Below, piece after piece: positions 23,777-30,794 of a stretch of DNA of 44,571 nucleotides (its first letter is position 1; each line of letters opens with the position of its first letter). Source of the stretch: Bacteroidota bacterium (lineage in GTDB: Bacteria > Bacteroidota > Bacteroidia > Bacteroidales > SZUA-534). A program made the position numbers and the translations under genes. Where the stretch lies: positions 1-44,571 of the forward strand of contig QKGS01000073.1 of the NCBI GenBank assembly GCA_003250355.1, written 5' to 3'. The notes below the pieces were generated by a model. The model did not search any database. It was not told the origin of the DNA and worked only from the letters and a program-made list of their open reading frames with translations.

Positions 23777-23870
23777 TGCAATATATATCTTGCTTTATGC
23801 GAGACGCAATATCTTGCTTTATGCGAGACGCAATATCTTGCTTTATGCGAGACGCAATATCTTGCGTCTC
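23777..23870. repeat. Tandem 24-bp REP-derived repeats
   Basis: The unit GAGACGCAATATCTTGC + TTTATGC occurs at 23801-23824 and 23825-23848. A diverged copy lies at 23777-23800, and a final copy at 23849-23870 completes a perfect palindrome with 9-bp arms (GAGACGCAA / TTGCGTCTC). There are no unique spacers, so this is not a CRISPR array. The array lies immediately 3' of the RAYT gene, whose stop codon falls on its edge. Confidence 0.85.
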
Positions 23871-24571
23871 TACGTATTATTAAATTTGTCGGTTTTCCAT
23901 TTTTTGGGATTGCAATTTATATAATTTCTTATTGTATCAAACGATATTTCGTTTCTAATAATGTGATCATGATATCGTGACTGCCATTGAAATTCATGGT
24001 TATTATTGCGTGCACATTTTGTAACACCAATTTTATAACCTCGTATTATTGATGCCAAATTACGTGATTGCGGACCAAAACGGTTTTTGGATTTGGTTAA
24101 ATGTAGATACGCAATATTTTGCGTATCTATATTGGCATTAACATTGGCGGTGGTGGGAGACGCAATATCTTGCGTATCTACATTCGCATTAACTTTGACA
24201 TTGGCGGTGATGGGAGACGCAATATCTTGCGTATCTACATTCGCATTAACTTTGACATTGGCGGTGGTGGGAGACGCAATATCTTGCGTCTCTACGGGTT
24301 TGTCTATAATTATTATTCCGTGGATATGGTTTGGCATAACCACAAATGCATCTAATAATACAAACGGGAAATGTTTGGGTATTTCAAACCAACATGCCCA
24401 TGCATATTTTCCAATTTCTGACAATATCATTTTTCTATCGGCAATTTCTCCAAAATAATGATTTCTTCCATGTGTGCATATTGTAATAAAATATGGTGCA
24501 TTATGTCCATAATCCCAACTTTGGAGTCTGCATGATTGTATACGATATTTGTGATTATATTTTTCAGGCAT
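23870..24571 (-). CDS. REP-associated tyrosine transposase (RAYT) with in-frame REP repeats
   Basis: RAYTs are Y1/HUH single-strand nucleases that process REP palindromes. The 233-residue protein shows FITICTHGRNHYFG, the HUH motif VVMPNHIHGIIII (His82, His84), and the C-terminal WQSRYHDHIIRNE...FDTIRNYINCNPKKW with likely catalytic Tyr217. Residues ~93-155 are an insertion of 19-residue repeats (core VDTQDIASP-TANVKVNAN). Each repeat is encoded by a REP palindrome plus a spacer, and the total length is about 65 residues above the normal ~165-180. The stop codon TAG overlaps the first bases of the 3' REP array. All catalytic residues are intact, so activity is possible. Confidence 0.88.
   Translation of the reverse strand: MPEKYNHKYRIQSCRLQSWDYGHNAPYFITICTHGRNHYFGEIADRKMILSEIGKYAWACWFEIPKHFPFVLLDAFVVMPNHIHGIIIIDKPVETQDIASPTTANVKVNANVDTQDIASPITANVKVNANVDTQDIASPTTANVNANIDTQNIAYLHLTKSKNRFGPQSRNLASIIRGYKIGVTKCARNNNHEFQWQSRYHDHIIRNEISFDTIRNYINCNPKKWKTDKFNNT
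24104..24292. repeat. Four REP palindromes inside the RAYT gene, 57-bp period
   Basis: Palindromes lie at 24104-24129 (arms TAGATACGCAA / TTGCGTATCTA), 24157-24178, 24214-24235 and 24271-24292 (arms GAGACGCAA / TTGCGTCTC). The last three are exactly 57 bases apart, including a conserved spacer. Since 57 is divisible by three, every copy keeps the RAYT frame and reads ETQDIAS or DTQDIAS. Confidence 0.9.
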
Positions 24572-30111: not shown

Positions 30112-30765
30112 TTAATCAACTATTAAGCCATCTTGCATAGTAACCACACGGTCGGCCATTTTTGCCAAAGTCATATCGTGAGTAACTACTATGAATGTTT
30201 TTCCGAATTTATCTCTAAGGTCAAAGAAAAGTTTGTGCAGTTCTTCTTTATTATGAGTATCGAGATTACCCGATGGTTCATCGGCAAGAATAATATCGGG
30301 GTTGTTAACCAATGAGCGAGCTACTGCTATTCTCTGCTGTTCTCCGCCCGACATTTCCTTTGGTTTATGATCAATACGATGGCTCATATTCAAATACTCT
30401 ATCAACTCTTTGGCTCTTTCTTCGCACTGCTTACGATTTTTATTGGCAATAAGAGCCGGTATAATAACATTTTCCAAAGCTGTAAACTCAGGCAAAAGCT
30501 GGTGACTTTGGAATACAAAACCAAGATTTTGGTTACGAAATTTAGCCAAAGCCTTTTCTTTTAGTTTTGTTATATCAACACCATTAATATTGACAGAACC
30601 CCTGTCGGTTTTTAATAGCGAACCTAATATTTGCAAAAGCGTAGTTTTTCCTGCTCCACTTTTACCAACTATTGAAACTATTTCGCCCTTACCTATTGTC
30701 AGGTTTATCCCTTTGAGTACTTCAACTGTTCCGTACGATTTATGTATGTTGTTTATTTCAATCAT
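30112..30765 (-). CDS. LolD/MacB-type ABC transporter ATP-binding protein
   Basis: The 217-residue ATPase has Walker [12 protein letters not shown], the LolD/FtsE-type segment [18 protein letters not shown], signature [19 protein letters not shown], Walker [13 protein letters not shown] and switch His (VVTHD). This subfamily energises lipoprotein release (LolCDE) or MacB-like mechanotransmission. The permease is not adjacent, so its partner must be elsewhere; in Bacteroidota a lone lolD is common. A 16-bp tandem duplication (30755-30786) spans its start codon and creates a second, out-of-frame ATG. Confidence 0.85.
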
Positions 30766-30794
30766 TAGTTATTTCAATCATTAGTTATTTCAAT
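30755..30794. repeat. 16-bp tandem duplication over the LolD-like start
   Basis: ATTTCAATCATTAGTT occurs at 30755-30770 and 30771-30786, followed by half a third copy. The duplication supplies the last codons (IEITND, stop) of the upstream exchanger remnant and duplicates the start-codon context of the ATPase gene. Confidence 0.85.

Follow-up and report, generated by a model that had tools for sequence, protein, structure and literature searches.

The RAYT gene and its linker

The window, the whole 44,571 bp stretch of DNA analysed here, contains a minus-strand gene for a RAYT, or TnpA-REP, protein, the long central linker of which is encoded by DNA holding four in-frame palindromes; a further palindrome lies at the 3' end of the gene, where there is also a short tandem array (Table 1). 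The sequence-only reading had identified the protein as a RAYT, and the assignment holds. It matches the NCBIfam model REP_Tyr_transpos (NF047646) with an E value of 1.6e-14, although at 54 bits it does not reach the curated cutoff of 80 bits. The match consists of two stretches split by the long linker, which weakens the equivalog label and leaves the family reading unaffected. Pfam Y1_Tnp scores 21.2 bits, just under its cutoff of 23. The HUH motif (H82 and H84), W196-Q197 and the catalytic Tyr217 are all invariant in a 58-sequence alignment (A2).

When solved structures were searched by sequence, no match to the protein was found. By fold, the best PDB match identified by Foldseek was the 165-residue chain 4er8_A, an E. 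coli RAYT bound to a REP hairpin (E = 3.2e-05, 13% identity). According to the available text of the recognition work on this enzyme (NAR 2021, PMC8266576), its substrates are single-stranded REP hairpins bearing a GTAG foot; the E. coli REPs have a bulged stem, unlike the near-perfect palindrome of the window. The AlphaFold model of the window protein has a mean pLDDT of 78.6, with core blocks at 96-98 on both sides of the linker. Bounded by a predicted beta strand (residues 82-89) and helix (172-189), the linker itself is predicted to be disordered, with ten-residue pLDDT means of 43-62 over residues 91-170, in keeping with the exposed loop for which the sequence-only reading had proposed to look.

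In the available text of Quentin et al. (2018; PMC6006769), subclass 2.4 of TnpA-REP comprises HuH-Tyr enzymes of Bacteroidetes with a variable insertion between beta3 and alphaC, the motifs NH[IFV]H, WQ and YIxNNP (their Table 1), double-foot REPs flanking the gene and, uniquely to this subclass, REPs placed in frame inside tnpAREP itself, as a rule between HuH and Y, which are suggested to have little effect on activity. The window protein resembles this description closely: it has NHIH, WQ and YINCNP, with one mismatch in the last motif, combines HuH and a single catalytic tyrosine with the Y1-transposase fold, has a predicted-disordered insertion between beta3 and alphaC that differs in length among relatives, and carries REPs in frame between HuH and Y, flanking its gene (23849-23870) and elsewhere in the genome, where 18 of 22 sites lie outside contig C15. 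It is a RAYT of TnpA-REP subclass 2.4, or group 4 of the RAYT groups reportedly defined in work by Bertels, and this identity is close to certain.

Table 1. Coordinates of the RAYT gene and of the repeats inside and beside it
Feature	Position in window	Strand	Evidence
RAYT / TnpA-REP gene, 233 aa	23870-24571	-	ORF; NCBIfam REP_Tyr_transpos; invariant motifs; 4er8_A fold match
REP-bearing linker, about residues 91-170	24060-24300	-	predicted disordered, low pLDDT
Inner REP copy 1, perfect palindrome, coding-strand GTAG foot, reads V-E-T-Q-D-I-A-S	24271-24292	-	DNA fold -10.2 kcal/mol
Inner REP copy 2, one arm GATAC, reads V-D-T-Q-D-I-A-S	24214-24235	-	DNA fold -6.0 kcal/mol
Inner REP copy 3, one arm GATAC, reads V-D-T-Q-D-I-A-S	24157-24178	-	DNA fold -6.0 kcal/mol
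Inner REP copy 4, full GATAC/GTATC palindrome, reads I-D-T-Q-N-I-A	24106-24127	-	DNA fold -10.9 kcal/mol
Downstream REP, GTAG foot contains the TAG stop codon of the gene	23849-23873	-	sequence; stop-in-foot scan
24-bp x 3.4 array, half-palindrome and spacer	23785-23865		repeat finding

REP copies inside and beside the gene

Three palindromes exactly 57 bp apart had been noted from the sequence alone in the RAYT frame between H82/H84 and Y217, and they were found as described, starting at 24157, 24214 and 24271. Copy 4 lies 51 bp from copy 3, and Tandem Repeats Finder reports the array at 24109-24295, with a period of 57, 3.4 copies and a score of 297. Copies 1-4 are translated, with their spacers, as VETQDIASP-TTANVKVNAN, VDTQDIASP-ITANVKVNAN, VDTQDIASP-TTANVNAN and IDTQNIAY. 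Copy 4, earlier described as a diverged fourth palindrome, does exist in frame, but decay alone does not describe it: the sequence is a full GATAC...GTATC palindrome, the single-stranded DNA fold of which is as stable as that of the perfect copy 1, whereas those of copies 2 and 3 are weaker. The GATAC/GTATC variant, searched for in the same genome at zero to one mismatches, was found only in copies 2, 3 and 4, from which we infer that these copies were generated by duplication within the gene and did not enter it repeatedly from elsewhere. In copies 1-3 only the coding strand carries a GTAG foot, the opposite foot reading TGGG. The double-foot pattern GT[AG]G ... C[TC]AC is common among relatives; copy 4 has GTAG on the plus strand and ATAG on the coding strand.

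An array of palindromes had also been placed just after the stop codon. The 24-bp array is present there, but its first REP, the perfect palindrome at the 3' end of the gene, includes the stop codon, the coding strand reading ACG TAG AGA CGC.

The same REP elsewhere in the genome

It can be discounted that the palindrome is confined to this gene, since GACGCAWNNNNWTGCGTC was found at 22 sites in the genome at one mismatch or fewer, against none for a reversed control, with copies outside the gene. Seventeen outside sites were examined, one on C66 being left out: 13 are intergenic; of the remaining four, all in frame, two are close to the C-terminal end of a nitrogenase component 1-like protein and two are in a protein with a Por_Secre_tail domain. 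The earlier premise that REPs are normally intergenic is therefore too strong, the same REP being in frame in two other proteins of the genome. None of the 17 has an exact GTAG foot, and among the 19 sites listed (genome G000, contigs C15, C40, C44, C75 and C92) only the two in the window do; elsewhere the foot is GTAA, GTAC, ATAG or similar. Chance as the origin of the repeats is ruled out by the 22 sites against none in the control, together with the density of linker palindromes relative to shuffled sequence described below. The predicted-disordered linker holds four in-frame copies of a REP family that is found at the 3' end of the gene and elsewhere in the genome.

Two of the outside loci have features of their own. 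On contig C40 (L046, 14000-20500), clusters of the REP family stand between large ORFs, with palindromes at contig positions 15946-18996; the nitrogenase component 1-like protein is a 470 aa ORF of this locus (Pfam Oxidored_nitro, E = 3.3e-105), the C-terminus of which is lengthened in frame by two REPs (IETQDIASHSRTQDIASH). On contig C75 (L048:2275-2826), a presumably secreted protein has the REP in frame within its C-terminal sorting domain (Por_Secre_tail), alongside a third, diverged repeat.

The genome contains five RAYT paralogues. The inner REP of the paralogue on C96 differs from that of the window; elsewhere in the genome it recurs in three exact copies and in one with two mismatches. 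For the C33 and C29 paralogues, a search at two mismatches or fewer located the inner REP in those two genes alone. RAYTs of one genome thus hold different inner REPs.

Palindromes among related genes

Relatives were drawn, among the matches listed, from 198 genomes of the order, 296 of the phylum, earlier relatives and fetched stretches. After removal of 22 loci that repeated others or had no RAYT match, 191 ORF matches yielded a first set of 150 distinct genes with the NHxH and W..Y pattern. A hundred further stretches were taken down the E-value order, passing over short open frames, contig-end rows and duplicates, so that genes near the A1 profile are favoured. The second set, from titled genomes, consists of 79 of the best 80 of at least 490 matches. 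The sets overlap slightly, and merging of identical genes left 226 distinct genes out of 229. Palindromes were required to have arms of at least 9, no more than one mismatch and a loop of at most 6, linker palindromes so defined not necessarily all being REPs; shuffles were first-order Markov samples and not exact dinucleotide shuffles.

A linker palindrome is found in 188 of the 226 distinct relatives (122/150 genes of the first set and 68/79 of the second). Palindrome density in the linkers of the first set is 5.80 per kb, against 0.38 in shuffles, with 0.38 (shuffle 0.49) in the N part and 0.42 (0.55) in the C part of the core. The 300 bp flanks have 1.99 per kb upstream (0.49) and 1.94 per kb downstream (0.34), a palindrome being present within that distance upstream of 59/150 genes and downstream of 66/150. 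The corresponding values for the second set are 6.72 per kb in the linker (0.16), 0.65 in the N part (0.42) and 0.39 in the C part (0.37). A linker density about three times that of the flanks exceeds what insertion tolerance alone would predict, a point in favour of selection.

Relatives do vary in repeat copy number at this position and in linker length, which runs from 13 to 117 aa between the two ends of the quantile list for the 150 genes. In several of the 38 genes without a linker palindrome an eroded remnant persists, for example VKTQHLAS or a doubled RDAMCCVS, and in L283 and L290 there is no trace of a palindrome. L283, from a Bacteroides sp. MAG (JAJBTC010000062.1), is about 55% identical, has a short linker with no insert, and is accompanied by one REP upstream and one downstream, making it a natural empty form. 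These empty relatives and decayed copies imply that the fold does not depend on the insert. Compensation of a missing inner REP by additional flanking REPs was not seen (a REP-like palindrome within 300 bp in 14/36 genes without an inner REP against 70/176 with one; Fisher p = 1.0).

Match between inner and flanking REPs

The inner REP matches a palindrome in its own flank at a similarity of 0.85 or more in 45 of 93 genes, compared with a mean of 2.3 and a maximum of 11 in 10,000 permutations, and in 30 of 53 genes of the second set (permutation mean 3.5, maximum 11); in the other 48/93 and 23/53 genes, no flank palindrome within 900 bp reaches this similarity. Set against the flank of the nearest relative, a gene's own flank is the better match at core identities of 0.40-0.55 (97 better, 41 worse, 6 ties; p = 2e-6) and 0.55-0.70 (76 better, 42 worse, 4 ties; p = 0.002), these pair counts not being fully independent since the surveyed genes are related. 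At core identities of 0.70-0.90 (16:16, 1 tie) and of 0.90 and over (4:4), the own flank is no better. Among remote relatives the match hence goes beyond shared descent, and among close relatives it is indistinguishable from inheritance.

DNA-level conservation, reading phase and tandem growth

In 78 disjoint pairs with core identities of 0.5-0.8, identity at third positions is 0.80 for the REP and 0.48 for the core, the REP value being the higher in 71 pairs; at codons for identical residues the figures are 0.87 (397/454) and 0.53. The shared GAGAC foot adds to this silent-site signal, making the central 14 nt the better measure. These are 0.97 identical at core identities of 0.85-1.0, against 0.52 for linker sequence 17-38 nt outside, and 0.76 against 0.31 for adjacent linker at core identities of 0.6-0.7; the baseline from remote pairs (core identity 0.2-0.4) is 0.37 against 0.27. 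At the DNA level, and at silent sites as well, the REP stands as a conserved island in an otherwise diverging linker. Unrelated DNA in this region of the orthologues, named in the sequence-only reading as a sign of selection on the protein, is not what the relatives have. The island is predicted both by renewal of the REP and by purifying selection upon it.

A reading phase could be assigned to the foot in 157 genes: GTA-GAG in 112, the other open phase in 41 and the TAG phase in 4. Of these last, three prove on translation to be pattern errors, and L245 lacks a TAG at that place. Together with the 2/118 palindromes also called in this phase (phase 2), five of the six such rows look like pattern errors. 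The TAG within the GTAG foot closes one of the three reading frames to the REP, and the two open phases give unrelated peptides (VET..ASL and RDA..VST). A single quick FastTree tree, with support values ignored, implies at least 26 changes of presence and at least 26 of phase, which does not favour a single ancestral insertion in one frame.

Tandem repeats are found in 65 of 226 linkers, compared with 6 of the N and 2 of the C parts. Every one of the 65 has a period divisible by three, and 36 touch an inner palindrome. Arrays parallel to that of the window include five REP copies 75 bp apart in L187 and three 54 bp apart in L085. Paired in-frame repeats in L198 and L192 are, alongside these, independent REP arrays in RAYT linkers.

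Relation to known systems

The sequence-only reading set a RAYT gene with its own in-frame REPs against REPs as normally intergenic substrates; the feature is not new, having already been published by Quentin et al. (2018; PMC6006769). The window gene is a clear example of it with a tandemly amplified insert, and differs from subclass 2.4 as described in that the insert is a 57-bp array with a gene-private GATAC variant. What the survey adds is the unusual commonness of the inner REPs and their preservation at the DNA level, with the survey numbers given above; the match statistics, the silent-site test and the empty relatives come from the present survey and were not found in the available text of PMC6006769. 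Nor was any mention of subclass 2.4, 'Bacteroid' or 'inserted' found in that of PMC8266576, or of 'group 4' or 'within the RAYT' in that of a Genetics 2021 paper (PMC8049555). A search of the literature outside subscription papers turned up no study testing the reason for the persistence of the inner REP.

The GTAG/CGTC REPs described in the available text of Di Nocera et al. (2013; PMC3733652) are similarly translated in frame, in segments that tolerate them and frequently as dimers or clusters, although the genes concerned are those for DNA repair and others and do not include that of the cognate transposase. Palindromic repeats in frame in coding sequences are likewise represented by the Rickettsia palindromic elements (RPE), which are mentioned there. 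In the window, the host gene is that of the RAYT itself. No cognate RAYT is known to be tied to RPE, and the genes that host them are not known to be related to RPE spread.

Origin and persistence of the inner REPs

It is reasonable to regard the gene as carrying its own putative substrate. Given the coding-strand GTAG foot of copies 1-3, the enzyme can probably recognise the inner copies as substrates when they are single-stranded, and the single-stranded DNA predicted to be bound or cleaved by the window RAYT is GTAGAGACGCAAGATATTGCGTCTC.

With moderate confidence, we propose that a REP was gained in a tolerant loop, duplicated by slippage under a reading-frame filter, and kept matched to the specificity of the enzyme by renewal or selection. 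A REP would first have entered the linker, the only part of the gene tolerating an in-frame palindrome. Tandem duplication of the 57-bp unit of REP and spacer would have followed, with replication slippage at the hairpin as its most likely cause and only whole-codon insertions surviving. The GATAC variant would have arisen within the gene and afterwards spread among the inner copies. Across the family, inner REPs may be lost, decay and be replaced by REPs of the enzyme's current specificity, and such replacement would keep the inner REP matched to those flanking the gene. Renewal of this kind in a tolerant loop appears the most likely mechanism, with slightly better than even confidence.

A cis-acting function is a less probable alternative, in which the inner REP would be selected as DNA or mRNA, either as a binding site for autorestraint or as a portable master copy able to found a new REP population. 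The frequency of linker palindromes, present in more genes than are those within 300 bp upstream or downstream, fits with this, as do the silent-site and island conservation and the restriction of the exact GTAG foot to the window's two sites among those listed. Yet 38 genes do without the palindrome, some of them without a trace (L283, L290), those lacking an inner REP are not enriched in flanking palindromes, and renewal by other REPs would be expected to produce the same conservation. That subclass 2.4 genes keep their cognate REP as a master copy or autoregulatory site, such that enzyme and substrate move together and the linker mirrors DNA specificity, is a tentative suggestion.

Neutral decoration alone, with REPs landing wherever they are tolerated and undergoing neither renewal nor upkeep in a merely tolerant linker, is improbable. 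The in-frame copies in the Por_Secre_tail and nitrogenase component 1-like proteins, the eroded copies among relatives and the intragenic REPs known from many unrelated genes (available text of Di Nocera et al. 2013, PMC3733652) are all consistent with it, but the palindrome should then drift with the linker, whereas it is the much better conserved of the two (0.76 against 0.31 identity). Selection for the V-E/D-T-Q-D-I-A-S repeat as a functional peptide, with the palindrome as a by-product, is very improbable and, as a sole cause, largely rejected by the silent-site and island conservation: although the foot is mostly in one phase, silent positions are kept beyond the level of the core, the two phases yield unrelated peptides, the region is predicted to be disordered and L283 has none of the peptide repeat.

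As regards the earlier proposal that the RAYT might cut its own gene and alter its own loop length, the linker arrays indicate that loop length changes in evolution, from which it does not follow that the enzyme is the agent; an enzyme editing its own loop is speculation, and replication slippage is the simpler alternative to it.

If the inner REP tracks specificity, the linker of an uncharacterised subclass 2.4 RAYT would reveal which REP is cognate to the enzyme, the gene being a ready-made record of enzyme-substrate pairing. These genes also offer a clean case for telling DNA-level upkeep of a mobile palindrome from protein selection inside coding sequence.

Further observations

A stop codon within a REP foot is found in 6/150 and 3/78 genes of the two sets, the window included, out of 36 TAG stops. 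The nine of 228 RAYT genes with a TAG stop in the foot of the downstream REP are that of the window (23870-23872), L072, L177, L185, L191, L201, L223, L289 and L291. Elsewhere in the window, at 30753-30794, there is a perfect 16-bp x 2.6 tandem repeat (TTATTTCAATCATTAG) that has no relation to the REP.
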